64,000 nt of DNA from Plasmodiophora brassicae (Eukaryota; Endomyxa; Phytomyxea; Plasmodiophorida; Plasmodiophoridae). The notes under the pieces are model-generated. The model saw nothing but the letters and a program-made list of their open reading frames with translations, had not been told where the DNA came from and searched no databases. Below are positions 1,889 to 37,259 of this stretch, piece after piece (the stretch's first letter is position 1; each line of letters opens with the position of its first letter). The stretch is taken from positions 372,001 through 436,000 of the forward strand of contig JASFAU010000007.1 of NCBI GenBank assembly GCA_039704465.1, given 5' to 3'. Made by a program: the position numbers and the translations under genes.

Positions 1889-3018
1889 TCAGGTGGAGAA
1901 TAGCAGCGAGAGGGCCCATCCGATCAGGTAGGCGGATCCCGCTGCGATGGCGCCGTTGAAGAGCACGGTGGAGCCGGCACGAACGTACCTCCCGTTGCCG
2001 GATAACCGCGCTGGAAAACGCAGAGTCAGCGTTCAGCGCGCGTTCCTGGCGAACGGGGGCGAAACCTTTGATGACCCCGAGGAGGAACAACGTGATGGCG
2101 GTGGCGATGCAGGCTATCAGCAGGACGGTATTGTGGTCGCTGGTAGCGAACCGCAGGACGCCGAGCACGAGCAGAGGGACGGCACCGAACACCATGAACG
2201 CGAGGAACGTGCAGATCCCCTTGGCGGCTGGAGATTCGTCCGGGTCGGGCGGCATGACGCCCAGTTCCGTCACCATCATGTGCTCGACGAAGAACTCCTT
2301 GTACCTGCGAACGTCACTGTCATACAGGTGTCATCGGGCAGGATGACAAACACGCATTGGAGACTTGGCCATCGTGTTGATGATCAGCTCAGCGTCTGCC
2401 CGTTGAACGCCCTTCGACTCGTACAGTTCGACCATTTCGTCGATCTCTCCCTTGGGGAAGTTCTCCAGTTCCCACGATTCTCTGCCCGACAGCAGTTAGG
2501 CTCGCGTTAGCGCCCCAACCCAGTCGCGACCGACCTCGCCATTTCCGTTCGCGCGTGCTCTATCTCGGCAACGGACGACACGTAATCGCCCACGCCCATG
2601 GAGATGGCATCGGCAACCAAGTTAGCGAACCCTGCCGAGGCGACGCATGTCATCCAGCAGTGGCACAGGCGCCGCATGCCCGTTGGAGACCGATGATGAG
2701 GACGACGGTCGGCGATAAATTGGCACCCGACGACCCGGCGACGATCGCGAACGTCGTCATGATCCCGTCCATACCGCCAAACACGACCGACTTCATGAAC
2801 CTGCAGGCTGTCCATAAATGGGCGGGCGCAGGTCGAACGGCCAGGCTCTGGACGCACACGGCGGCATGCGCCGAATGCACTTCCTTGCCGCGCGGGCGCT
2901 GGTGCGCCAGCGCCGATTCCTGCGGGTCGCCGTTCTTCCACGCTCTGCGAGCCGCCTCCAGGTCTCGCGACAGCACGGCGTCGCGCGGCAACACCAACGC
3001 CCCGTCGTTCCTCCCCAT
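1889..3018 (-). CDS. VIT1/CCC1-family vacuolar iron (Fe/Mn) transporter
   Basis: Predicted to move Fe2+ or Mn2+ from cytosol into a vacuole-like store. Hallmarks in order: KSVVFGGMDGIMTTFAIVAG at the first membrane helix, LVADAISMGVGDYVSS, the EIEHARTEMAR and EGEIDEMVELY-type cytoplasmic metal-binding helices (here KGEIDEMVELYESKG), FFVEHMMVTELG, and a last helix with NGAIAAGSAYLIGWA. These are family signatures. Introns: 2632-2690, a second of ~53 bp near 2480-2533, 2305-2355 and 2011-2065. The third keeps the frame only if it starts with GC rather than GT. The ATG at 3018 is chosen because the acidic, charged leader (SRDLEAARRAWKNG) follows it; an upstream ATG at 3144 is in the same frame. 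The 3' end faces the end of the sensor-like gene, leaving about 65 bp between them. Confidence 0.88.
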
Positions 3019-3304
3019 CGCCGTCGTCGGCGCTGCAGCAGACCTTGTGCCAACAGTGTTCCCGGCCTGCGTTACATCGGGGCAGGAACCCTCTGTCGCA
3101 CGACACTGTGAGCTGCGTCCACCCCGCGTCAGCTGCAGACCCAAAAATCGACACCAGGAATGAGCTGCTGACTGCTGTCAGCAGCTCACGCCGATCTTCG
3201 GCGGGTTCCGGCGGCAGCTTCGCAGGCGGACAGCAGTCGGGCACGTCGTCGGCGCGCCGTGCACCGCACAACTGCGCCGTGTGGGGATTGCGTAATAGCA
3301 TACC

Positions 3305-5218
3305 ATGGGCAGCGGCGACGACGACATTGACCTGGCGATACTCGACAGCGACACCGAGCTGAGATCGTTGCGGCGCCGGCCGGTGCGGTTGAGGAAGAAG
3401 AGCCAGAAAGCGGCTGCCGAATGCACAACGTCGACGTGGGGCTTCGCGGGCGCGTGTCGCCGGCGCGAGGGGAGTGACGTGCTTGGTAGGGGTCTGTCCG
3501 AGGCGGATCTGCTGTTCGAGCAGGTCATGCGACGCAGTCGTGAACGGAGGGAGGAAGCGGAGCGAGTGAAAGACCTGCTGATGCAGAGCGAGGAGCAGGA
3601 TGCGGAACTGGAGGCGCGGCTCGCCGTCCTGAAACAGAAGAACGAGAACGAACGAGACGTATGTTAGTGTTGCTTTGCGTACCGCATCCTGAAGGCCTAC
3701 ATCTGCTGCATGCAGGCGGAAGCACGTGACAAGGTCTATGGAATTGAGTCGTCAAGCGCGCACGAGTACTCCATCGTCGAGAACGCTCAACGAAGTCCTT
3801 CGCCCATGCTGGTATCGTTCAGCAGTTCTGCTCCTGGTGACCTGCGGGACCTAGCGGAAGGCGCTCGAACAGGTATGTGGCTATCAACAGTACGTGGGAT
3901 CACAGACGCCTGACGATGTGAAGAACCAGGAGCGCTCACGACAACGCTGTCCGAGTACTTGTTCGCCCCAGTTGAGGCCAATGTGTTCATTTCGGATCAT
4001 ATCCGATCCCCCGCCGACGAGGAAGCGCTGTGTCAACTCCTGTTCCAGCTCGTGGCAACGCACTGTGATCCGTTCGTTGTCTATCGAAGCCGGCAACTGT
4101 TGATTTCGATCCTGGCAAATTCCAGAAGGGTACGTCTCGCGTTTGTGCTTGTTCCTATATATTTTGAGTGCCTATTCCCGACGCAGGAATCATCCAATTT
4201 GTCGCCGTTCGAACGTCTTGATCTAATCATCGACGATTGTGCTGATGAAGGCCGTCGAAGTCCATGGTTTCCGCAGGCACGACACTTCCTTGCCGCTTTG
4301 CATTGTTCCGGTACGTGACGGTACAGTATGAGACCTCACCAGAGGGTTCACGTACTCTAGGTGTTCGCGATGTGGCAATTACAAGTGCTGCAGGGGGGTT
4401 ACCCGTCCACTGTAGGGATGTGTGCGGGAACTTGGGACACATTCTGTACACCCTCGCTGCGTGCTGTGACCTGAACGCTCCCATGTACATGCCGGACATC
4501 ACTTCGCTGCTGTTGCACCTGTTTGCCGTGATGGTTGACCCTCGCTCATGCGACATTGGGGAGGCACTGAAACATTGCGTCTACCGGCTGCTGGATGCCG
4601 CGGGTCGTCGGAAAGTTGAAGACAGCGTCATCGTTGATTGCGTCATGTCGCCACATCTGTCGAGCTCTGTTGCCAACCGGGCACACATTCTGTCAGAAAT
4701 GCCAAACTCGGAGTATGGCTCTCGAATCGCCAGGCATGGTGCTCTTCGTGTCCTCCATCAAGTTTTCATAGGCAACGCTGTATTTCATCGAGCGCGCATG
4801 CTCGGTCGCGACTGTGTGTCTGATTCGCAACGTGCAGACGCCCTTCCAATTTCACCACCAAACGTCTGCCACCGAGTCCATGCTTCAGATGGTGAAGGAA
4901 CGCGATCTGTACCAAGTGTGTCGCGATAACGGTGTAGACATTGCAGCCGTAGTACTCTTGATGCAGATTATCGCCTTTCGTGGATCGCGTGCTTGCCCAG
5001 GAACCACCCCATCGTCTGGCTCCTCCAAGTTTCAAGTCCTCAGACAGTGCTGGCAAGGAGTTCTGGATTCCCTGAGTCGCTGCGGTAACAACACATTGTA
5101 CAGCGTCATGCTTCCAACTGACGTTGTCCGTTCAGCAATTCTCGACGAATCCATTGCGCGTGCTCGCGATGCGTTGCAGAGCTCGATCAAGATGGCAGAG
5201 CTCTTGCAGCGACGATAA
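3305..5218 (+). CDS. Unassigned multi-exon protein, coiled-coil N-terminus and helical C-terminus
   Basis: Six exons can be joined with consensus splice sites: 3305-3658, 3716-3872, 3930-4129, 4187-4310, 4361-4761 and 4838-5218. The N-terminus has an acidic/basic stretch, then a charged predicted coiled coil (RRSRERREEAERVKDLLMQ). The rest is Leu-rich and probably alpha-helical, with blocks such as LCQLLFQLVATHCDPFVVY, LGHILYTLAACCDLNAPMYM and DIGEALKHCVYRLLDAAG. The layout (disordered/coiled N-terminus, helical C-terminal domain) is reminiscent of SLF2/FAM178-type SMC5/6 regulators, but I cannot confirm this and give no symbol. The 57-bp intron at 4130-4186 is a multiple of three without stops, so its retention would not break the frame. 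It ends about 110 bp from the convergent neighbour. Confidence 0.6.
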
Positions 5219-5329
5219 TTCGTCGCTGCGTATATATCAAAGCAGGCGTAAAGGCAGAAGACAACCTGTATTGCCTTGCTGTTGAACGTAGTTGTAACGC
5301 GAGGAACACATCTCCATCAACGATAGGAA

Positions 5330-7002
5330 CTAGACGATGACATCTTGGAACGGCTTGCGCATCTGGGCCGCTGTGGAGAAACCAAGTGCGTGATCATCGG
5401 TGGGATGAAGACCTGCTTGATCCTCCGGGACGATGCCGTGGATGACATGCTCGACGCCAAAGACAGTGTGCGCGTACATGGCAGCATTGCGAGCTCGCAG
5501 CTTCTGCTGACGTCGCCAGAGGAAGAACGCGATCAGCGCAGCGACCAGAAAAATTGTCACCCCAGCCAGATACGGTATCTCCTTCTTCGTTATCCAGCTC
5601 TTCGGTTGCTCATGAGTGACCTGGATCACCGCGTCCCCGCTGGAGGATCCAGCCTGGCGCGGGGGTGGCTCGAAGGATGTCTCGCCTGTCTCTGCGTTGA
5701 CGCTGTTTGCCGAACTGGTCGAAGGTTCGGCCGGGAATTGCTGGCTGCCTTGCGTCCCGCTCGTTTCAGTTGTGGACGTCTCTCGTGCAGACCTAAATGG
5801 CGCGTCACGAACCGGTCCACTGGTTTCCGCAGCAGGTTCAGCATCCGGACCAGGGCCATCATTAGCATCGACGTCATCGTCCGACTGCGGATCACTGAAC
5901 CCCTGTTCGTCATCGGAGACGACATCGCTCTCGTTGTCGGAGTACACGTCATCGTCAAAACCGGCATTCAGGTCAGGCTGAGTGTCAGCACGCGGTTCAT
6001 CTGCGACGAACTCGTCTTCCCGTGGAGAATCAGCGGCGTTGTTGGTCACCGAGAGTATGGGCTCGACATCGTCAAACGTCTGTTCCTCTGGGGCTGCAGG
6101 ACCGCTTGTCACCGGTGGGAGCTCCGGGTGGTCTACCGCATCGAACATAGCCCACAACTCTGACAGGATGTCGTCGTCTTCAGTCGTTGATGGCAATGGG
6201 GAGGCAACGTCTCCTGTCGTCTCACTGGCACCCGAGGGCACTTCAGGGTCCGGTACGTGGTGTTCATCAGCAGCGCGTGTGTCGCTCAGTGACTCGGGAG
6301 TGATGTCCTGTTCGGCGAGTGACACACCGCGTTCACCACGCTCCATCTCGCTAACATCAGATCGGGCATAGCTTCCAGAAAGACCATCCTCCTGGTCGTC
6401 GTCCGTGGTTTTGATCACGATGGACGGCTTTTGGATCGTAATTCTGTTAGTAATAGCCTCGGCAGCCAAGCTCTGCAGGTGAAAGCATCAGTGGCGTACG
6501 TCGCACATGATTCCGCCGCCGTGTAGTTACCAATGTGATTGCCTCCATATGGTCGTTGATGTACTCGACGACCTCGCTGTCCTTCGGTATGCTGAACGTC
6601 CAGTGTCCTGATTGGGAGCGGTCAGGAATCCACTCGTGGGGACAATATGAGCACCTTACGATTCAGACCGTCTGTATCGTCATCCAGTTTGTACGGCGTC
6701 AGATCGAAAGTTTTCATTAGTTCACTGTCCTCGCCGAACAGCTCGAAAAGGACGCGGTTGCCGTCATCCGACGGCTCCACATCCATTTCAACCTGGATTT
6801 CATCGCATACCGCCTCAGGGATCGCAGCTGACAAGAAGAACGCCCGGTTCGGTTGAAGTCGAAGGCGCATCCACGAGGGCTTCTCCAGGGTGACGGCGAC
6901 GCCGGAGGTCGTGTACACAGCCCCCTGCACGACCTGCCCGGCGATGATGACCGCCAACGCCACGTGAACGATCATGATGAGGGACAGCTCCCGCCCGCGC
7001 AA
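5330..7002 (-). CDS. Type I membrane glycoprotein-like protein with acidic linker
   Basis: Three exons: 6660-7002, 6531-6607 and 5330-6472, joined by introns 6608-6659 (GTAAGG donor) and 6473-6530. The N-terminus MRGRELSLIMIVHVALAVII is a signal peptide or anchor. It is followed by ~130 residues that read like a beta-rich luminal domain (AVTLEKPSWMRLRLQPNRAF; MDVEPSDDGNRVLFELFG). A long acidic, Ser/Pro-rich, probably disordered segment (~residues 150-400) follows. Near the end comes one membrane helix (EIPYLAGVTIFLVAALIAFF) with a basic stop-transfer WRRQQKLRAR and a ~60-residue tail. Family unrecognised. Topology implies a luminal domain, acidic stalk and short cytosolic tail, as in cargo receptors or surface proteins, but function is open. 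Confidence 0.7.
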
Positions 7003-18466: not shown

Positions 18467-18556
18467 CACGCGCGCTGTAGACGTCCTCCAGAATCAATCG
18501 GGACGCGGCCTCGACGCGCCCAGGAGGTGGAAACGAAAGGGCCACCTACGCCGTCG

Positions 18557-18682
18557 GACTGCAGTTCCACTCACGCGCAGGTGGTCAAGCTGCAGCTCCA
18601 CTCATGGCGTCGTCGAACTGCAGCTCCACTCACGCGGCCGAACTGCAGCTCCACGCACACGGTCGAACTGCACGTTCCCCTC
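18557..18682 (+). repeat. Imperfect ~25-30 bp direct repeats abutting the RecQ start
   Basis: Five degraded units with core ACTGCAGCTCCACTCACGCG recur at about 18557, 18589, 18617, 18641 and 18666, ending only ~20 bp before the RecQ ATG. Each core holds the palindrome CTGCAG. They could be promoter or 5'-UTR elements; no known motif is claimed. Confidence 0.6.
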
Positions 18683-18703
18683 AATTGTTGGATTGTCCGG
18701 GGA

Positions 18704-20957
18704 ATGATGGCGGCGGGTTGGGACGAGGCGCGCGTGCGATCGCTACTGTCGTCGACGTTCGGCGTGGCGGCGCTGCGCCCGGACCAGGAGCGGGCTCTGC
18801 AGGCGATCGCGGCCGGGCGCGACGTGTTCCTGAGCCTGCCGACGGGCGGCGGCAAATCGCTTTGCTTTCAGTTGCCGGCGCTGCTGTCCGATGACGTCGT
18901 CGTTACCGTCGTCGTGTCGCCTCTGCTTGCGCTGATGGGCAATCAGGTCGCGTTGCTGCGCTCTCGTGGCGTGTCGTGTGCAGCGCTGAACAGCACGTTA
19001 TCGTCCAAGGAGGCCCAGCAGGTGCGTTCAGCTTTGTCGACAGATAACCCGCCTCGTCTGTTGTACGTTACGCCCGAATCGCTGTTTACTCCTGCGCTTG
19101 GGCGAGTCCTTGATGGATTGTATCGACGCGGCCGCTTGCACCTGTTTGCAATCGACGAAGCACATTGTATATCCTCATGGGGCCACAGTTTTCGTCCATC
19201 GTATCGGGCGTTGTGTCAGATTCGAGAGCGGTGGCAGTCGGTTTCCATTCTGGCATGTACGGCAACGGCAACGCAGGCTGTACAGGATGACATTGTCACA
19301 CTTCTGTCCTTGCGTGATCCTGTCATCATTCGAGCAAGTTACAATCGTCCGAACCTGATGTATTCCGTTCGATACAAAGCAATGATGTCGAAGCCCCTAA
19401 AGGATGACGTTCTGGCGCTCGTCAAGGGGCGGGCTGGGTGCGGTGGGATTGTCTATTGCAGCACCCGCGCCCTGGTTGATGAGCTTTCTGTGCACCTTAT
19501 GATGGCCCGAGTGCCTGCTGGCGGGTATCATGCCGGAATGGCTCATTCCGACAGAGTTCGCATCCAAACGCAATGGGAGTCGGGTGATATCGACGTGGTG
19601 AGGGTCGGAACCCACATTTGCTGTAGAGATATAATTTCCTCTGCAGATCGTAGGGACCACAGCGTTCGGTATGGGGATTCACCGAGACGACGTCCGCTTC
19701 GTGGTTCATGTTGACATCCCGAAATCAATTGAAGACTACTATCAGGTTGGTCGTGTGCCGGCCTTGGATTACTGTCTGACTCATTTACGATAGGAGAGTG
19801 GTCGAGCTGGACGCGATGGCGAACCTGCCGATGTCGTTCTCTACTACTGTAAAGACGACGGGCGGCGCATGCAGTATCTCATTAGCGTCGAGGACCGCAA
19901 TGTGCCGGTTCATTCGTCACCCTCGGTGGACACTCGAGATCATCGAAGCGCAAGGCTAGACTCCATCATTCAGTACTGTGAAACTGCCTCCTGCCGACGC
20001 GCGAACCTTCTTCAATATTTCGGAGAGCGCTCTCCAGGAACCCGCCCGCAATGCTGCGACTACTGCAGGTCTCCAGCGATAGTGACATCCTCTCTTGAAC
20101 GTTGTATTTCAGAGTCTGTCTCGAAATCTTCCCGTCGCGACGTCTTGGCTTCTTTGTGGTTATTTCGACGTGCCGACGCCGTCGTCCCGGCGGATGACGG
20201 TATAGCTCTCGTTGAAGAACCCGTCTGGGCAGTTGAAGAGTATTCAGGTAGAGATAACAACCATGCATCTGTTCCGGCCAAGACATTCCGGTCCACAGCA
20301 GAAATGTTCGACGAGTTGGAGCAGGCCGAACAGTCAGCATTATCACGTCCATCCAAGAAGAAAAGGATGTCTGCTGATCTAACGTCATCCCAACGAGACT
20401 TGTGTCGGGACCAGATACGGCAAGCTCTGCAGATGAACGATATCGCTGCCGCCGTTTCGTTACCATCAGGTTTCGACGAAGAATCGGCTCGCCTTGAACA
20501 GCGAGCATTCGCCTCGAGTGCCGGTACGAAATCATCGTACATGGCGTTGATACGGGAACAAGTCGGTCGGATACGAAGGTTCTCTGCCGCCTTGATGCTG
20601 TTCTCGGATCAGGATATCGACGTGGTCCTGGTCCCCAACGTTGACATGCTTCAGTCGCGAATGCGCAGGATGGTGTCCGCTCTTCAATCAGCGGATGCCA
20701 GGGACATCGACCCTGCTGAGCTCGGTTGCATAACGGATGCATTGAAAACCTGTCCTATGGATATGGAGACACTTCGCCGTACAAAGATTGGTGTCGACTT
20801 GAACAACTTGCGGAAACTGTTGCTGAAGCGGAAAGGCGACCGGATGCCGAACGAACAGTCCCTACGAGATGTCGGTGACGTCCTATCGAGGTGGAAAGCT
20901 TTGCACCAGTCCTCGGTACAACACGGCCAAGGGAAAACCAGCCCTGAAGACCTGTGA
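18704..20957 (+). CDS. RecQ-family DNA helicase
   Basis: ATP-dependent 3'-5' DNA helicase for recombination and replication repair. Exons: 18704-19597, 19647-19745 and 19794-20957, 718 aa. Motif 0 ([17 protein letters not shown]), motif [16 protein letters not shown], Ia [71 protein letters not shown] and [13 protein letters not shown] are all intact. The RecQ zinc-binding region follows ([17 protein letters not shown] ... CCDYC). The C-terminal ~270 residues are Ser/Asp-rich with helices and show no clear HRDC domain, which resembles RECQ5-like enzymes more than BLM or WRN. That subfamily call is tentative. The repeat array immediately 5' may affect its transcription. Confidence 0.92.
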
Positions 20958-21206: not shown

Positions 21207-21909
21207 TTAAGGTGACGGGTGATTGGCCGACGACGTCGCTGGTGACGGAAAGATCTGAACCTCGCCCTCTTCGCTGGTGACACACTGGGACAGAACAAAG
21301 TCGTGCGTGGTTCCATCGGTGAACGTAAACTTGACCCTGGCGTCCGCCTTCATCTGACCGTTGACGGCGAACCAGGCCCCGCTTGAGCGCGTACCGGCGA
21401 TGCCACTGATGGAGACCTGGCGGGCCACCCGACCGGCCGTATTTATCACCATGATCTTGGTGTAGTAGATGATGCCGTTCCCTTGCGACAAGGCGCGCTT
21501 GTAACATACCGGATGGGGGACGTTCAACGGGTTCACCCCCGTCTTCTTGACGGTGCAGTACGTGATGCCAGGAGACTGACCGGTCGCCTTGTTCCAGGTG
21601 TCGCTAACGAGATCTGCCCCGCCCCCGAAGTTTTTTTGTCGATGCAACGATGGCGTTGACGGGTTGGCGTCCCTTGCAGGTGAACTCGAAGACCATGCCG
21701 CATGGCGAGTCGATGTTGCCCTGCTTGTAGATCAGGTTGCCCAGGCTCGGGTCGTCGCCCAGTGCGAAAGCGTCCTGCAATGTGTACCAATTGCTCTTGG
21801 GCAGGGAGCACCCACCGGGGTCCGTCTGCGATGCCCACATTGTCAGCTTGGCGTTCTGCTGTGCGGCTGCGGCACCGAGGATAATCACCAGGATCGCAAG
21901 CGGAAGCAT
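21207..21909 (-). pseudogene. Expansin-like protein, copy A, frameshifted at a T7/A7 tract
   Basis: Homologous throughout to copies B and C. It starts with the signal peptide MLPLAILVIILGAAAAQ (ATG 21909) and keeps the conserved phrases MWASQTDPGGCSLPK, LIYKQGNIDSPCG, FGGGADL, SPGITYC and GNGIIYYTKIMV. At 21631-21637 a run of seven T (A on the coding strand) adds four bases relative to the intact copies, shifting the frame between VAST and NFGGG. The downstream half is otherwise clean to its stop, so the lesion is recent, an assembly error, or read by slippage. Copies B and C lie 0.5 and 2.7 kb away in opposite orientation, an inverted tandem arrangement. Confidence 0.75.
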
Positions 21910-22400
21910 TTCGTTGGATGCACTTGTGGGGGATGCTAAATTCCAAATGACGGAACATGCTCCAGGGGCGTTCTGCTGAATCTGTTCACAATGCGAGCGA
22001 TGCACTGTGTGACGCATGGCCCTTGTGCTCGTTGCATTAGCCAGAAACAGCCGTGCGTCACGCCTCCTGCGCTCTGATCTGATCTGGCGGGCGTCCGCGT
22101 GAATATCGTATCCGGAAGCTCGCTACCAAGATTCCGACACGCATGAGTCACACTCTAGCGAGGATTTCTGGCGCAGAGGTGCATGGTGTGCACGCGTTGT
22201 GCACGCCATGACGTATGCGTGCGATCCAGGCAGATATCGCGGGCGAGATTCTCAGCACGTGAGTCACACTCAGAGGAGATACTCACTGCCGCTTGGAGGC
22301 GTGAGTCATTCTGCATGCAACCGTGCAACGTTGTCCGTCACCGTGTTCGTTCCTTGTTGCATCATTGCAATTCTAGAAGCCAACTGTGTGCGTCGAACGA

Positions 22401-23063
22401 ATGTCACCCCTATCAGTCCTGTTCGTGATCCTGGGCGCTGCTGTTGCCCAGCAGAATGCCAAGATCACCATGTGGGCATCTCAGACAGATGCCGGAGGGT
22501 GTTCCCTGCCCAAGGACAGCTACGCGTTGCAGGACGCGTTCGCGCTGGGGGACGACTCGAGCCTGGGCAACCTGATCTACAAGCAGGGCAACATCGACTC
22601 GCCGTGTGGCCAGGTCTACGAGTTCACCTGCAAGGGACGCCAACCCGTCAAAGCCATTGTCGCGTCGCAGAACTTCGGCGGCGGTGCCGACCTCATTCTC
22701 AGCACCTGGAATAAGGCGACCGGCCAGTCCCCTGGTATCGCGTCCTGCAGCGTCAAGGCCACGAATATGAACCCGCTGTCGTCTAGCAGCCCCGTCTGCT
22801 ACACGCGCTCCATTTCGCAGGGCAATGGCATCATCTACTACACCAAGATCATGGTGTTGAACACGAGCGGGCGGATCGCCAGCAAGGTGGCCATCAATGG
22901 CAATCAGGGCAGCCGGTCCAGTGGCGCTTGGTTTTCGGTGGGGGGCAATATGAAGCCCAGCGACTCTGCGACGTTCACGTTCACCGATGGGAGCACGGCC
23001 AACTTCCCCCTGTCGCAGTGCAAGAACAGCGACGAGGGCAATGTCCAGATCTTCAGCGGGTAG
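22401..23063 (+). CDS. Secreted expansin-like protein, copy B
   Basis: 220 aa with signal peptide MSPLSVLFVILGAAVAQ and no intron. The first ~110 mature residues resemble the expansin double-psi beta-barrel: Cys-rich GGCSLPKDSYALQDAFALG, an SPCGQVYEFTC segment, and ADLILSTWNKATGQSPGI, the equivalent of the HxDL...F...A...GI stretch carrying the barrel Asp. The last ~85 residues resemble the beta-sandwich carbohydrate-binding half (IMVLNTSGRIASKVAINGN, SRSSGAWFSVGG, FTFTDGST). Expansins loosen cellulose/xyloglucan contacts without hydrolysis. Expected role: modifying own or host cell wall after secretion. The family call rests on pattern and layout; it could also be called an expansin/loosenin-like protein. 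Confidence 0.7.
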   Translation: MSPLSVLFVILGAAVAQQNAKITMWASQTDAGGCSLPKDSYALQDAFALGDDSSLGNLIYKQGNIDSPCGQVYEFTCKGRQPVKAIVASQNFGGGADLILSTWNKATGQSPGIASCSVKATNMNPLSSSSPVCYTRSISQGNGIIYYTKIMVLNTSGRIASKVAINGNQGSRSSGAWFSVGGNMKPSDSATFTFTDGSTANFPLSQCKNSDEGNVQIFSG

Positions 23064-23400
23064 TCATCCTAGTCTGCAAGACCATGTCCCTGCATGACCA
23101 GAGCACGTTGCCCTTCTGTGGATCGTTAGTAAATCGTTTGCACATTGCCGAATATTGTATCTGGCGAGATAGTGTCTGCACCCTAAGCTGCAGAACCCTA
23201 AAGACGCATCGAGGCGGCGGTCGTGGGGGTTCAACACCGCATTACGACGTCATATTACAATGGGCCTGTCTCGTAGCAATTCGGATGGCGTGACTGTTCC
23301 AGTCGAGCTAACGCATCAAGGGGCTCCGGGCGCAGACGGCAAGGACAGCGACGCCCACGTCGCTCATCCAGATTCCAACTGCCCCACACGTGCCGGTGAG
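23064..23400. other. Intergenic, nothing assigned
   Basis: Roughly 340 bp after expansin-like copy B. Short frames exist, but none has codon pattern, similarity or splice support. Confidence 0.3.
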
Positions 23401-24490
23401 CTAGTCGTTGGGAGCATACCCGGATTCACTGGTGCACCTGGCGGAAGTGATTCGCTTCTGGTGCCCGATAATTGAGTTCGCCTGGACGTACTCGTTGAAG
23501 CGCACCTTCGAAATCATCTCGGACACACTGTCCGCCCCGCAGGCGTTCACCACGCTACCGTCGTCTTCATCGTAAGGCAAGCCGCAACGTCCATCCCTTG
23601 TCGATCGCTTCGTAAACTGTATCGCATTCATCATTGCGACAATGCTGATCCACATCTTGCAATGCGGTGGGTTGTCATCCCTGTCATTTCGTATCGGGCT
23701 CTTGTGTGCAACTCACGAGATGCAGAAGAACACCCGACGGAACACCTTTGCACAGACAGTTGCCGCAACGACGACAGCCCTGAAACGCCCCCGTCGGCGA
23801 TTGCCACCATACGACTGCCCGCTCGCTGCCGCCCAAGTACCTGGGCAACTGTCAAGGCACGCGTGTCTTGCATAACCGGCACTATAAGCTAGGACGCTTA
23901 CAGCATCTGCAGTGACGACATTATCTGGCAAAGGCGCCTGGGTTGATTGTCGAGATCCGATGCTGACAAGTACTCCCTGCGCATCCCGCTAAGACACGTA
24001 CACCTCTATTGGATCGGGCGCAAGTACTCGTACAGCTCCTCTAGAACCAGCTGCTTCTCGAAGGCGTCCTTCTGTACAGTTTCATTTTCGTGAAACACGC
24101 TGTCGATCGCATAGGTCGTCGTGATCCATTGGCATATATATAGAGAACATGCCAGCCAATCGATATTCGAGGTCTGATTGTCCTCCGAGTATCCGCCTCC
24201 GGTCAGAAAGTCGACCATATGACCGGCTAAGTGGACGCCCCTCCAATCTTCCGGCCATACGACCATGAACGTTCTTCTGCCACAAGGGTAGGATCCAGAT
24301 CGTAGGCATGCACCGCATGTCCCAGCCTGCACACGGAGACGACAGACGTGGGACGACGAGGCGGATACTGCCTGGTGCGACCGGATCTGCAGGAGCGCTG
24401 GTAGATACCATAAGGGTCGCGCGTTGTGATGCCGATTTGTATCGCACTTGAATCATGCCCCGATATCCAAGAGCATGAGTCACGCATCAT
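23401..24490 (-). CDS. Uncertain hypothetical gene(s) between expansin copies
   Basis: The minus strand holds several fragments that may be exons of one gene: a 5' portion with DWLACSLYICQWITTTYAID and KQLVLEELYEYLRPI (about 24006-24332), a middle with GTWAAASGQSYGGNRRR, and a 3' portion ISIVAMMNAIQFTKRSTRD ... VSEMISKVRFNEYVQANSI ending at 23401. I could not join them with consistent phases, no family is recognised, and part may be non-coding. Listed so that the 1.1-kb interval is not read as empty. Confidence 0.25.
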
Positions 24491-24581
24491 GAACAGTGAC
24501 GTTGTTCGTTGCGGAACGAGACAGTTCTGCCCCTGTTTCCATCACATCAATTCTCGCCAGCGAATCAGCACATCGAAAGAA

Positions 24582-25253
24582 ATGCATCTGTTGCCGTCGA
24601 CGGTGGTGGTCATTCTGGGCGTTGCTCTTGCACAAGATCACGCGAAGCTGACCATGTGGGCGACCCAGACCGACGTCGGTGGGTGCTCCTTGCCGAAGGG
24701 CGATTACGCGTTACAGGACGCGTTCGCGTTGGGCGACGACCCGAGTCTGGGTGAACTGATCTACAAGCAGGGCAACATTGATTCGCCATGCGGCATGGTC
24801 TTCCAGATTTCCTGCGATGGACGGGAACCCGTCAAGGCCATTGTCGCCTCGACGAACTTCGGCGGGGGCGCCGACCTCATTCTCAGCACCTGGGACAAGG
24901 CGACCGGCCTGTCCCCTGGCATCACTTACTGCAGCGTCAGCATGACGAATGAGAACCCGCTGACCGCCAGCGTCCCGGTCTGCTACACGCGCGCCGTTTC
25001 GGAAGGGAACGGCATCATCTACTACACCAAGATCACGGTGATGAACACGGGCGGCCGCGTAGCCAGCCAGGTATCAATCGGCGGCAACACTGGCAGCCGC
25101 TCTAGCGGCGCCTGGTTCCAGGTGAGCGGCCAGATGAGCCCGAGCGATAACGCTGCGTTCACGTTCACCGATGGCACCACCCTCGATTTTGCCCTGTCCG
25201 ACTGCTTGACCAGCAACGAAGGCGACGTCCAGATCTTCGGTGGGTCGTCGTAG
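24582..25253 (+). CDS. Secreted expansin-like protein, copy C
   Basis: 223 aa, intron-free, with signal peptide MHLLPSTVVVILGVALAQ. It shares the two-domain layout of copy B (barrel: GGCSLPKGDYALQDAFALG, DSPCGMVFQISC, GGGADLILSTWDKATG; beta-sandwich: VMNTGGRVASQVSIGGN, SSGAWFQVSG, FTFTDGTT). Similarity to copy B is uniform along the length and closer at protein than at silent positions, consistent with an older duplication under selection. The start is the ATG at 24582, directly before the hydrophobic leader; an upstream in-frame ATG at 24426 would bury the signal peptide and is rejected. It lies in the same orientation as copy B and opposite to copy A. Confidence 0.7.
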   Translation: MHLLPSTVVVILGVALAQDHAKLTMWATQTDVGGCSLPKGDYALQDAFALGDDPSLGELIYKQGNIDSPCGMVFQISCDGREPVKAIVASTNFGGGADLILSTWDKATGLSPGITYCSVSMTNENPLTASVPVCYTRAVSEGNGIIYYTKITVMNTGGRVASQVSIGGNTGSRSSGAWFQVSGQMSPSDNAAFTFTDGTTLDFALSDCLTSNEGDVQIFGGSS

Positions 25254-25971
25254 TGCCCCAGCGGAACCTGTCTAATAGACAAATACCGTATGTTCAAAGA
25301 CGTCGTTCGACAGCTCTTGGGCAGGTCTGTCTCAAGTAATAAGACATCCGTGACGCGCAGGCGCTCGACCTGATTGCCCACTCGAGAAGCAACATGAGCG
25401 GGAACGTCACCATGATCAACGCCGTTGCACTCGGCGGTGCAGCCGAAAACCGACTCTGCGGCATCGGTCGAAGGACAATTCAGCATGGAATTGTGGCTGG
25501 TCCACGTTCGGCTTGGCAAGCGAAGCAACCACTTCGATCTGGCGATGCCTTGGGCGTACCACCGAATTCCACCAGTGCTGATTCATGTTGCACGGAATAA
25601 CGTTATGCTGACCGTCGTTGCTCTCCACGGGAGTCCCCCTGAGCTTCGTCCTGTTGCTGATCGCCGAGTCCGAGTTAGTGCTGTGTCGCCGCAGTCACTC
25701 CAGTCGAGTACTCCTGCGTTGCTGATGTCATCATCATGGTTGCTTCAGGGTCCTGGTTGCTGTCATGGCCATGGTTGTGGTTGTATTCTCTGCGTCTCCC
25801 TGTTTTCCGGGTCTCCGTTCGGCGCACAGTGGAGAACAAACGGGTGAACTCTGCAGCGCGGGAGGCCACCGGTTGTTTTGACTGGCGGCATTTTTAGTGG
25901 GCACGAACGAGCCCACCAGACCACCACTCACGAAGCCAAAAGAGGAGACGTTACCCCTGATCGGACCCCGC
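25254..25971. other. Intergenic, no supported gene
   Basis: About 700 bp between expansin-like copy C and the first palindrome. Short frames on both strands lack codon bias, splice logic or similarity. The first palindrome marks the right edge. Confidence 0.35.
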
Positions 25972-25994
25972 GAACGTACAATTATTGTACGTTC
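25972..25994. repeat. 23-bp palindrome P1 (outer left)
   Basis: Perfect odd palindrome: half-site GAACGTACAAT, one central T, then its exact reverse complement. The same site recurs near 26207, 28129 and 28193, bracketing the SAP/nuclease gene. Confidence 0.9.
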
Positions 25995-26180
25995 AACTTT
26001 GACCCATCGGAAATTTTTTGTGTCTTGACGAAAATCGCCGTTGTTTCTCCCTGAGATAAACAGCGTCCCACACAGTATGCCTTTGAAAGAACGAGGAAAT
26101 TACATCACTGGTAAAGAAGGAACTCGATGTCGAAAATTGGCCAAATCAGGTCACCCCGGGGTCGGCTTATTTTAGCTATC

Positions 26181-26229
26181 GTACAACTATTGTACGCTCA
26201 AGGGGGGAACGTACAATAATTGTACGTTG
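26181..26229. repeat. Palindrome pair P2' (degenerate) and P2 (inner left)
   Basis: P2' is an imperfect copy whose core GTACAACTATTGTAC lies at 26181-26195, ending with the GCTC variant also found in P4. Eleven bases on, P2 at 26207-26229 is a copy of the 23-bp site with central A and one end mismatch. Both lie directly downstream of the 3' end of the SAP/nuclease gene. Confidence 0.85.
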
Positions 26230-26273
26230 GGAATGCGGTGACAAATGAGTGAATTGGAAAGAGTTCATTGAGT

Positions 26274-27934
26274 TCAAACAGATCCGATTGATCGCTTACG
26301 ACCCCGGCGGCTTGACTGTGCGGGCTCTTCTCGCCTGCGAATCGTCCTGGACGAGTGGAATAACTCGTAGCAGGTTTTCTGGTTGCGACTGTGCTTGGTC
26401 GAGCACAGGTTGACCGTGCAGGATTGGCAATAGCTCGTGGTACGGCCACCGCAGACGACACACGAACGAGATGGCCCGCTCCCCGACCAATGGGTAAGGT
26501 CGTTGCTGATGGTCAATCGGAACGTTGCCATGTCTGCCCTGTTAAAGAAGCCGAGCTTGTTGTAGCGCGGTACGCGCGGAGGGTCCAGACCGCTCGGCCT
26601 GGCAATGCAGGCTTCTCCCACGACGAGTTCTCCCGACGTCATTCTCTGCGAGGGCACCCAGTGTGTGGCGACGTCACAGAGGAAGTCGCGAATGATTTCT
26701 GGTAATTGAGGAACGCCTTCCACTTATGATAGCTGCTGAAATCGGAGCACATGTCCGAATTCAGAAGCAGGTGATGTAGCATGTGGGCGTTCAGCAACGA
26801 CGACATGATAAACCGGACGTTAATGAAACCTCTCGGCGTCAGGGACCGGAAGTCGACCTTGACGTTCTTCAGTTGCCGCGATACGACATCCTGGCCGCCT
26901 TTGCAGTGGTTCCACATGGACACCACGTGGGGAACAACGTCGTGGAGAGGCGGAAGCGCTTGACCTTCCTCCCTTCGTTTCAGTATTGCACTCGCGAGAT
27001 CGCGCCAAAGCGTGAACGTTGATGCGTCAACAGCATGACCGAAGACGTGCGGCGGATAGCTTGCAAGTGCTCTTTCCGTCAGCAACGGCTGCAGTTCGGC
27101 ATCTAGGCGGGCGATCATTGCTTGGTACTGCTGCAGACATTCCGGGCTGAACGATACAAGCGCCGCGTAGACGATCGTTTGGCCTGATGCATTAACGAAC
27201 GAACAGCGCTGTGTTGCACGTTGTCGTCGCGCAGTGGTGCAGCAACTGTCCACGATACGCGGCCGTCCAGACGGTCGTCTTGAACAGGGAGAGCAAGCGT
27301 CGTCGAATTCGAACATGCGACAGCTGTCACCGACGATGTCCCTGGCGCTCTGCAATCGCGATCTGGCCTCGCGTTCCGTCGAGTTCTCCGTCGCCGTCTT
27401 GAACTCAATCACGCAGACAAGCGACGATACAACGACGTCATCGACGACTCTGTGGAGAACAGTGGCCCCATCGATGGACGTCGCCAGAACGGGAACTTCG
27501 CGGCTCTGAAGGAGACCGCGATGAACGATTTCGCCGTTCGCGACAGACCAACCGCTGCCGTATATGTCCATCCAGGAAGAAAGCGCCGTCGAGATGTGAA
27601 CCTCGTTGGCGGATCCCACTTTCATTCCTGGGCTTCGAACGGGCTTCATGAACCATAGCTTCAGCAGCTTGGTCATGAGCTTGACGCTGGCCATCGATTC
27701 GAAAATGCGGTCAACCAGTACCGGCTTGGGGGCGGACGAGACACGCGTTAAGTTCAGGGACGCCGCCAAGTCCTTCAGCTCATGGACGGTCTTTGCGTTA
27801 AGCTCGTCTCGAGTAAACTCAACGATCGGCGGTTCCTCGGCGTCATCAGCAATGTCAATGTACAGGCTGTGCAGAAGCTCAATATCTCCTTCAGTGAGCG
27901 ACCGAGCGAATGCACGGACGACAGCTGCTGCCAA
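26274..27934 (-). CDS. SAP + PD-(D/E)XK-like nuclease + piggyBac-type zinc cluster protein (putative transposase), frame broken
   Basis: The main frame (26639-27934) begins MAAAVVRAFARSLTEGDIEL. A SAP-like DNA-binding motif (LNAKTVHELKDLAASLNL, ~residues 45-75) precedes a region with SANEVHI, LATSIDGATV and VCVIEFKT, spaced like the E...D...ExK residues of PD-(D/E)XK nucleases. Then follows a helical part (FINVRFIMSSLLNAHMLHHL). At about 26715 the reading shifts by one, without a usable intron, into a second frame (26274-26723). That frame has LPEIIRDFLCDVATHW and a Cys cluster C-x2-C ... C-x2-C-x4-LC ... C-x3-FH, the pattern of the zinc-binding tail of piggyBac-family transposases. No DDE triad is seen. 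Function as a transposase or selfish nuclease is inference. The flanking palindromes are the strongest contextual evidence. Confidence 0.55.
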
Positions 27935-28128
27935 AGTCGATGTGACCTTCGAGCAGCCAGTGCGAACGATGTGCGCTCACACCGACTCGACAACCACAGA
28001 ATGGAGAAGCCCAGTTTTCTGCGGGGGCTAAATATAACGTGCATGCTGGCGAGTGATCTGATTTACTGTGCACACAACGCTGTGGTTCCTTCACAATCCA
28101 GCTTTGAAAATTGCAGGATTTGGCCAGC

Positions 28129-28215
28129 GAACGTACAATAATTGTACGTTCGCCTCAATTGGGCTCAGGTCCGTGATTGCCCAAAAATGCGCGAACGTAC
28201 AATTATTGTACGCTC
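28129..28215. repeat. Palindrome pair P3 and P4 (right side)
   Basis: P3 (28129-28151) is a perfect 23-bp palindrome with central A. P4 (28193-28215) has central T and one mismatch in its right end. Spacing between them is 41 bp. They lie upstream of the SAP/nuclease start and ~135 bp before lipoxygenase 1, so they could also act as regulatory sites for either gene. Confidence 0.9.
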
Positions 28216-28349
28216 CCGCGATCACGTGCCTGGCGCCTTGGAGTCTCGGCTGTTGAGGGCCGCGGCGTCGACGGCTTCGGTGGATCGTTTGCGGCGTACA
28301 AAACGCGTCTGGGCCGTGATTCGGTTGGCGAGTGAACAGGCCGGTTGTC

Positions 28350-35074: not shown

Positions 35075-37259
35075 CTACGCCGGCCCAGTGGTCGTGTCGT
35101 TCGCCATGTCGATGAGGTCATGGGCGCCGGAGGCCGCGTTGCTTAGGCGCCGATTGATGGCGATGGCAATCGTCGTGTGGACGGCCGCCAGGTGCAGCGC
35201 CGTCTTGCCCTTGTTGTTCTGGGACTTGATGGCGGCCTCGCTCATGCGTCCGATTAGGGCGATGGCGAACTCGGTGCGGCCATTCCGAGCCGCCCGGTGC
35301 AGCGCCGTCTCGCCGTCGATGCTCTGGGCGTTTATGGCGGCCTCGCTCATGCGTCCGATTAGGGCGACGGCGATCTCGGTGTGGCCATAGCAAGCCGCCA
35401 GGTGCAGCACCGTCTGGCCGCGGTTGTTCTGGGCGTTGATGGTGGCCTCGCTCATTCGTCCGCTTAGGGCGACGGCGATCTCGGTGCGGCCACACCAAGC
35501 CGCCAGGTGCAGCGCCGTGTCGCCGTAGATACTCTGGGCGATGATGGCCGGCTCGCTCATGCGTCCGATTAGGGCGACGGCGATCTCGGTGCGGCCATTG
35601 CAAGCCGCCAGGTGCAGCGCCGTCTGGCCGCGGTTGTTCTGGGCGTTGATGGCGGCCTCGCTCATGCGTCCGATTAGGGCGACGGCGATCTCGGTGTGGC
35701 CATACCAAGCCGCCAGGTGCAGCGCCGTCTTGCCGTCGATGTCCTGGGCGATGATGGCGGCCTCGCTCATGCGTCCGATTAGGGCGACGGCGATCTCGGT
35801 GCGGCCATCGTCAGCCGCCAGGTGCAGCGCCGTCTGGCCGCGGTTGTTCTGGGCGTTGATGGCGGCCTCGCTCATGAGTCCGCTTAGGGCGACGGCGATC
35901 TCGGTGCGGCCATCGCGAGTCGCCAGGTGCAGCGCCGTCTCGCCGTAGAGGTTCTGGGCGTTGATGGCGGCCTCGCTCATGCGTCCGCTTAGGGCGACGG
36001 CGATTTTGGTTTGGCCATTGCGAGCCGCCAGGTGCAGCACCGTCTCGCCGTTGTGGTCCTGGGCGTTGCTGGCGGCCTCGCCGATGCGTCCGATCAGGGC
36101 GACGGCGATTTCGGTTTGGCCATAGCGAGCCGCCAGGTGCAGCACCGTCTCGCCGTAGATATTCTTGGCGGTGATGGCCGGCTCGCTCATGCGTCCGATT
36201 AGGGCGACGGCGATTTCGGTTTGGCCACTGTCAGCCGCCAGGTGCAGCGCCGTCTCGCCGTTGTTGTTCTGGGCGTTGATGGCGGCGTCGCTCATGCGTC
36301 CGATTAGGGCGACGGCGATCTCGGTGGGGCCACACCAAGCCGCCAGGTGCAGCGCCGTCTCGCCGTCGACGTCCTGGGCGATGATGGCGGCCTCGCTCAT
36401 GCGTCCGATCAGGGCGACGGCGATCTTGGTGCGGCATATGCCATCCTCCAGGTGGGCCTCTACCGTCCATATCAGCGCCGAATCGGCACCGATCTTGAGG
36501 GCATCGATCGCCCGGATCGGCATCAACGAGATAAGCGCTTCGGCCAAGCCAGACTCGCCGTTCTCGATGGCGTCCTCAAGTTTGCTCCTGCCCAGCTGCC
36601 AGTCGCCATGATCAAGCAACAAACCCATGACCTCGTAGGAACCGTTCGTGACGACACCGCCATTGCTGCGGATGTCGTCCACGACGTGGCGCAGTCGCGA
36701 CTCCGCCTCGGACCGGACCACCATGTGAAGCGCATTGCCTCTGATTCACGAAAAGCTCGATGGCAAACAGACTTCTAATTGATAGATCAACCCGAGACCT
36801 ACAAGGTGTGGCTGCGCTCGACGAGCTGATCCGTCGGAATGCGTTGCGAGACGGCGCGAGCCGCCACCGACACCAGGTCGGGCATGTCCAGGTAGTGGGC
36901 TGCGTGAAGCAGCGCAACCAGTTCGCCATCAGAAACGACGACCTTCCAAGCCGACCCGTTCTGTGTGCGCATGAAGTCGGCGATCTGTGCCACCACATTG
37001 TCAGTCAACAAGCATCGCTCCAATGAGGTTTTTCGCTCTACAAACGTACGCGCAGCAGCGTGGCACGATCGACTCTCGGGAGCGGTATAATCCTGGGGCC
37101 GCCGAGCTTGCAGTCCACAATCATGGCGAGTAGTAAGCCCGACTGGCGCGCCTCATCCACGCTTATATTGACCATGATGGCATCGTCGTCCCCCGGTACG
37201 AGGTGCACGACATCGGCAACAGTATGAGCGACAGCGACAGCGAACATCTGCAACGACAA
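35075..37259 (-). CDS. SKP1-like (POZ) domain fused to ankyrin repeats
   Basis: Exons: 37050-37259, 36803-36984 and 35075-36740 (introns 65 and 62 bp). The N-terminal ~130 residues follow the SKP1 fold: MVNISVDEARQSGLLLAMI, IIPLPRVDRATLLR, then IADFMRTQNGS, VSDGELVALLHAAHYLDMPD and AVSQRIPTDQL. After a linker, twelve 35-residue ankyrin units follow (consensus TEIAVALIGRMSEAAINAQN then NRGQTALHLAACNGR), starting near residue 230. The ankyrin part is an almost exact 105-bp DNA repeat. SKP1 links F-box proteins to cullin-1, so the fusion may supply a substrate-binding arm to a ubiquitin ligase or be an adaptor of its own. The usual C-terminal SKP1 helix that grips F-boxes seems replaced by the repeat region. 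The start in exon 1 is not certain. Confidence 0.8.
35200..36440 (-). repeat. Twelve ~105-bp tandem repeats encoding ankyrin units
   Basis: Units differ mainly at the two variable loop positions (AQNNRGQ / AQDVDGE / AQSIYGD and AAWCGR / AADDGR). Framework bases are nearly identical, including silent sites. Because of this both strands stay open in several frames, producing spurious antisense reading frames. Confidence 0.85.

Follow-up and report, generated by a model that had tools for sequence, protein, structure and literature searches.

Which kind of element is represented by a minus-strand gene that lies between copies of a 23-bp palindrome in the window, the whole 64-kb stretch of Plasmodiophora brassicae DNA analysed here, and which of its parts would do the moving? 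The initial annotation had proposed a ~2.2-kb element bounded by the palindromes, in which a nuclease core takes the place of a DDE triad. The evidence presented below argues for a different answer. The window very probably holds a copy of a piggyBac-like cut-and-paste DNA transposon that is dead, has lost an internal segment and is non-autonomous. The full-length form of this transposon encodes a DDD transposase carrying a SAP-bearing lambda/YqaJ PD-(D/E)XK nuclease between its second and third catalytic aspartates (D2 and D3), followed by a Cys/His cluster.

Palindromes and boundaries of the window element

The palindrome has the sequence GAACGTACAAT T/A ATTGTACGTTC. All five copies listed in the initial annotation, including the degenerate one placed at ~26181, were present (Table 1). 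When up to three mismatches were allowed, the 17-bp core matched the window five times, compared with 0.19 matches expected and a maximum of two in 100 shuffles. All five matches were the palindromes already listed. The genome (25.3 Mb, 21 contigs) was scanned with a 19-bp core and at most one mismatch. This gave 69 strand matches, corresponding by count to 35 sites, while the reversed control pattern gave no match in the whole genome. All 35 sites were located within nine places, all of them copies of one element.

Alignment of the copies defined the ends of the element as CCCTGATCGGACCCCGC-palindrome on one side and palindrome-CCGCGATCAGGG on the other. In intact copies of this family (family A), the 17-bp core palindromes span bp 21-37 at one end and bp 16-32 at the other, counted inwards from the tip. 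A genome-wide search for the left tip with up to two mismatches detected ten places, namely the nine copies (exact) and one truncated relic on contig C8 (one mismatch); MITE-like copies of family A did not show up in this search. The boundaries of the window element were set by comparing the other copies; the proposed element is real but extends past the palindromes on both sides. Its right tip is eroded and lacks the final GGG, which accounts for a right flank, CGTG, unlike the TTAC on the left.

Table 1. Features of the window copy (positions in the window).
Feature	Position	Strand	Remarks
Non-autonomous, internally deleted family A transposon copy	25955..28224	- (gene)	bounds by comparison with other copies
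Left flank TTAC	25951..25954	none	expected left half of 4-bp NTAN target duplication
Left tip CCCTGATC	25955..25962	+	comparison of copies
Palindrome 1	25972..25994	none	perfect; 17-bp core begins 21 bp from left tip
Degenerate palindrome	26180..26196	none	match to 17-bp core
Palindrome 2	26207..26229	none	one mismatch, last base
C-terminal Cys/His cluster, C..C...C..C...C...C....H	26355..26462	-	frame differs from nuclease ORF in window copy
ORF, 431 aa: SAP, nuclease and D3 region	26639..27934	-	frame lost at end
KGGQDVVSR, motif of the transposase's third catalytic aspartate (D3)	26876..26902	-
Stretch in other frame than in relatives	27182..27313	-	conserved YRxQ nuclease motif absent
IEFKT, E-x-K of nuclease active site	27395..27409	-
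SIDG, nuclease catalytic D	27467..27478	-
SAP-like stretch nested in nuclease domain	27701..27817	-	Pfam SAP in homologues and family B; window copy: Rho_N E 0.0011, below cut-off
Junction of 1396-bp internal deletion	27974..27975	-	D1 and D2 removed
Palindrome 3	28129..28151	none	perfect
Palindrome 4	28193..28215	none	one mismatch; adjoins right tip

The minus-strand gene does contain the three features described earlier, namely the SAP-like motif, the SIDG...IEFKT core and the Cys cluster. Nuclease and Cys cluster had been assigned to a single gene; both are present, but they lie in different frames in this copy. One stretch of the nuclease reads in another frame than in the relatives, which explains the missing YRxQ motif, and a second frame change occurs near 26687, ahead of the Cys cluster. 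Judged by its sequence, the window copy is dead, because these frame changes add to the loss of D1 and D2 and to the eroded right tip.

Copies, target duplications and evidence for transposition

The nine genomic copies show the palindromes in the same arrangement and bear out the earlier proposal of a mobile element. Five of them are flanked by 4-bp duplications: CTAA (L011), ATAC (L014), ATAG (L015), GTAG (L016) and CTAT (the copy on C9, L012/L013). Matching duplications were absent from L009, L017, the window copy and a diverged copy on C16 (L018/L019), whose main pieces are 81-85% identical. The diverged copy covers ~10 kb (C16:660-670k) and is split by further inserts with long frames. 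CTAA flanks only the right side of L009 and only the left side of L017, which could be the trace of recombination between two copies.

L011 and L014 are 3.67 kb long, with 1.4 kb extra at the gene start. This additional stretch encodes SIDDDQYRL and CLDRGY...GTHKR, and D1 and D2 are present in both full-length copies. The earlier statement that a DDE triad is missing is therefore correct for D1 and D2 of the window copy, but D3 (KGGQD) is retained there and the full-length copies have all three. Measured against L014, a 1396-bp deletion with an identical junction was found in L009, the window copy, L015, L016 and L017, which identifies the window sequence as a deletion derivative. No microhomology was seen by eye at the junction. 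The C9 copy has the same junction and was hit later by an LTR-retrotransposon-like insert. By eye, this insert is Ty3-like, adjoins the deletion junction and contains long gag/pol-like frames and 87-bp terminal direct repeats. As L015, L016 and the C9 copy carry three different clean duplications, the deleted form itself moved several times. Because it is without D1 and D2, such copies, including the one in the window, would have been moved in trans. None of the family A copies read has a single uninterrupted frame for the whole protein, although introns or faults in the assembly may account for some of the frame breaks.

A sister family (family B) comprises six copies of 3.83 kb (L021-L026, on C10, C6 twice, C12, C16 and C13), which are pairwise >99% identical. 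They have the ends CCCTGGC...GCCAGGG, with TATCCCTTAAAATGGGATA at bp 15-33, and their aligned frame encodes D2, SAP, nuclease and D3, with D1 outside that frame. Perfect duplications flank all six copies (CTAT, TTAC, TTAA, ATAA, TTAG and TTAA). Empty sites were found for both insertions examined. At 11 other places, the joined flanks of L023 with one TTAA occur uninterrupted and without sequence differences, the filled site splitting at the 4 bp. The joined flanks of L024 (ATAA) were unbroken at 17 places. Family B confirms transposition. The repeat that hosts L023 and L024, an LTR element by eye, is present at >20 other places.

A third lineage (C) is represented by L020 (2126-5972, on C1). 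It has 17-bp terminal repeats, a 695-aa open frame reaching from before D1 to D3 and a TTAC duplication, which is not independent evidence since the scan demanded an NTAN duplication. This type of scan gave no match in 15 control boxes and detected nothing at L033, L027 and L028. In the neighbourhood of L020, related sequence was observed in inverted order.

At L033 (C19:172000-181000, 2985-6645, minus strand), a DDE part, D2 plus nuclease, and D3 plus Cys cluster follow each other in this order on three neighbouring ORFs, with D2 and D3 assigned by eye. Two of these ORFs exceeded Pfam cut-offs: the first scored 24.4 for DDE_Tnp_1_7 (cut-off 22.4) and the second 34.7 for YqaJ PF09588 (cut-off 22). 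No SAP was listed by Pfam for this locus. The nuclease ORF matched family B (best E 5.7e-6), and hhalign aligned it to the family profile with a probability of 98.7 across 283 columns. Comparison of the profile with the DDE ORF yielded a probability of just 5.1 and no convincing alignment. Further pieces related to L033 were noted on C4, C5 and C9.

All 11 duplications, five from family A and six from family B, conform to NTAN, and TTAA accounts for two of them; TA makes up 2.8% of the dinucleotides in the window. Because the target is not strictly TTAA, the element is called piggyBac-like rather than canonical piggyBac. The staggered cuts made by Paramecium PiggyMac are 4 bases wide and have TA at their centre, while the outer bases are free; this is the piggyBac geometry (PMC3408717). 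The P. brassicae element shares this NTAN logic. PiggyMac differs in being a domesticated host protein that acts on internal eliminated sequences, and a nuclease insert is unmentioned in the parts of that paper drawn on here (PMC3408717). A piggyBac-like transposon is thus seen to use relaxed NTAN targets, and the domesticated ciliate enzyme was the sole other example of this cutting pattern in the present analysis.

Architecture of the full-length protein

Homologues were collected in three protein searches, in each of which only the 7992 candidates with most common words were scored, so that the lists are lower bounds. The frame of the C9 copy retrieved at least six proteins, of which two are gene models of P. 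brassicae and four are metagenomic. One of the latter, P0004, has 959 residues and spans the whole architecture. As a query it retrieved at least nine (eight besides itself, five of them over 900 residues), and alignment A4 retrieved seven, all already contained in the first two lists. One relative, P0006, is labelled Gaiellaceae bacterium in a metagenome bin and is probably a mis-binned eukaryotic contig.

Read along the full-length sequences, the order is DDD transposase with the SAP-bearing nuclease between D2 and D3, and the Cys/His cluster last. Both active sites were invariant in the six full-length proteins, namely D209/D210, D290 and D778 of the transposase and E541, D587, E612, K614 and Q660 of the nuclease. 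The same was true of six Cys and one His in the C-terminal cluster, which had been likened to that of piggyBac from the outset. An alignment of 13 sequences includes three P. brassicae lineages, A (L012 and P0002), B (L021) and C (L020), and excludes the broken window copy. The nuclease residues D, E, K, R, Q and H were unchanged in all 13, as was the catalytic D ... E-x-K with the Q motif; the window copy, outside this set, is without the Q motif. Among the sequences covering each position, D1 was kept in 9/9, D2 in 10/10 and D3 in 11/11. The D3 motif is KGGQD, replaced by KGGVD in family B; as in piggyBac, the third aspartate comes after GG and is placed on a helix.

SAP (PF02037) scored above the Pfam cut-off in all seven environmental homologues scanned and in family B, and below it in lineage C. 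It was not listed for family A, where its place was covered by Rho_N alone, below its cut-off. For families A-C and the homologues, DDE_Tnp_1_7 was not listed or remained below its cut-off (best E 0.031), and YqaJ PF09588 was not listed. PF13843 gave no match across the P. brassicae genome, and neither did the controls.

Structure prediction points to a piggyBac RNase H-type DDD fold for the transposase, which matched the piggyBac and piggyBat structures 6x67 and 9c0f over 358-364 residues. The best fold matches of the nuclease model were lambda-type exonucleases. A lambda-exonuclease/YqaJ-type PD-(D/E)XK fold is predicted for the insert, and together with the invariant residues in relatives this supports the PD-(D/E)XK-type core suspected earlier. 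In the better model the stretch after D1 is of low confidence (residues 206-261 under 50), and a second model was poor (pTM 0.45). In a Foldseek search of viral models, 20 matches reached E <= 0.001, most of them to YqaJ/exonucleases; a giant-virus protein named 'IS4 family transposase' was matched at E 2.4e-3. Pattern scans of contigs, which are weak because just two short peptide patterns were used, yielded 22 matches in viral contigs (patterns from alignment A4; no relative by tblastn) and 27 in genome contigs (no relative).

Comparison with known transposons and possible roles of the nuclease

Apart from the predicted fold, the element shares with piggyBac the GG-x-D at D3 (piggyBac G444 G445 ... 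D447), the 4-bp duplication centred on TA, the C-terminal Cys/His cluster and a palindromic sub-terminal repeat near the tip (bp 17-33 vs 21-37 and 16-32 here). It differs in its NTAN target, in the SAP-plus-nuclease insert of ~330 residues and in a sequence that falls below the Pfam cut-off in families A-C. These findings extend the piggyBac-like group to Rhizaria. The C-terminal zinc domains of piggyBac bind as a dimer to a palindromic 19-bp repeat; piggyBat likewise binds a palindrome, but both its zinc fold and the palindrome differ from those of piggyBac (PMC7351741, PMC11707139). By analogy, the palindromes described here are probably binding sites of the C-terminal domain; their placement fits the role as protein-binding sites suggested earlier. 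Dimers of the Cys/His cluster would likely bind them and bring the ends together, and the aspartates would likely catalyse cleavage at the CCCT tips as well as insertion at NTAN targets.

The slot between D2 and D3 is the usual one for insertion domains, and exonuclease inserts in DDE transposases are already known from Dada (PMC3706591). Dada elements of Laccaria and Ectocarpus belong to another transposon superfamily and contain a DEDDy-type 3'-5' exonuclease, for which the authors suggest processing of cleaved 3' ends (PMC3706591). Such a DEDDy exonuclease after D2 was considered for P. brassicae and rejected, as the insert has a PD-(D/E)XK signature and best fits the lambda-exonuclease fold. 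The ISL2EU group of PHIS is likewise a DDE transposon that encodes a YqaJ exonuclease domain. It differs in that YqaJ forms a separate ORF, the function of which is stated as unknown, beside a transposase with HTH and THAP, and in that the target duplication is AT (PMC4482050). Compared with lambda exonuclease and YqaJ (PF09588), the nuclease described here is part of a transposase and has a SAP nested within it in families A-C. Among the open-licence PMC matches listed, none was found to describe a piggyBac-type transposase that encloses a lambda-type exonuclease and SAP. The terms 'piggyBac' and 'SAP domain' are absent from the main text of both P. brassicae genome papers, and 'YqaJ' from that of the 2019 one.

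Nuclease domains on DNA transposons are still unexplained; even for Dada a role is merely suggested (PMC3706591). What a transposon does with an exonuclease becomes testable in vitro with this element, because the nuclease is covalently joined to a transposase with a core that matches an enzyme of understood structure, has an equally invariant active site and occurs in full-length environmental homologues. Lambda exonuclease prefers 5'-phosphorylated ends. Excision by piggyBac leaves complementary 5' overhangs that allow seamless closure (PMC3408717). These two properties suggest resection favouring templated repair. We tentatively propose that the nuclease processes the DNA ends of transposition, most likely by resecting the 5'-ended donor flanks, and that repair from the sister copy would then replace seamless closure, although we would not yet bet on it. 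The stricter version, in which the built-in lambda-type exonuclease resects the donor 5' overhangs, blocks seamless closure and forces sister-chromatid repair, is possible but slightly less probable again. If true, resection would turn a copy-neutral cut-and-paste element into a copy-gaining one.

Alternatively, the nuclease might make the second-strand cut at each end of the transposon, on the strand that is not transferred, and thus contribute to excision chemistry instead of repair. There is a precedent in Tn7, where the PD-(D/E)XK protein TnsA cuts the second strand beside the DDE protein TnsB, and an intact PD-(D/E)XK active site inside a DDD transposase in 13/13 sequences would suit such a function. 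However, piggyBac is not known to need a second nuclease, and by fold the insert is most similar to lambda-type exonucleases. Moreover, piggyBac forms hairpin intermediates (PMC7351741). We therefore consider TnsA-like cutting unlikely.

A different function could reside in the deleted copies, which might express a SAP-nuclease-D3 protein, in some cases including the Cys/His cluster, and this protein would act as a repressor of transposition by occupying the palindromes. Long open frames in some of them (558 aa in L015, 634 aa in the C9 copy) and the deposited P. brassicae gene model P0001 with 558 aa are in line with such a repressor. The frames of the window copy, L016 and L017 are broken, and repression appears still less likely than second-strand cutting.

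The initial idea of a mobile or homing element with PD-(D/E)XK in place of DDE fits the sequence of the window copy as it stands, since D1 and D2 are missing there. It is now highly improbable and was rejected, because D1 and D2 are present in L011 and L014, both of full length, all three RNase H-type aspartates occur in 6/6 full-length environmental homologues, the deleted copies share one identical junction, and the nuclease has been inserted into the transposase between D2 and D3. That the palindromes are host regulatory sites or a general promoter motif and the gene an ordinary, single-copy host gene, in keeping with deposited records that speak just of a 'SAP domain-containing protein', has a negligible chance and is refuted by the copy structure, with 35/35 sites inside nine element copies, by target duplications and by exact empty sites.

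Beside the element, the window contains tandem paralogues of a small protein with a GNGIIYYTKI motif (21604-25253, by eye; one of them was scanned and had no Pfam match). ORFs at 18527-20957 are helicase-like and, by eye, resemble the RecQ type in their motifs. On the other side, at 35075-36724, an ankyrin-repeat gene of 549 aa displays very regular repeats.
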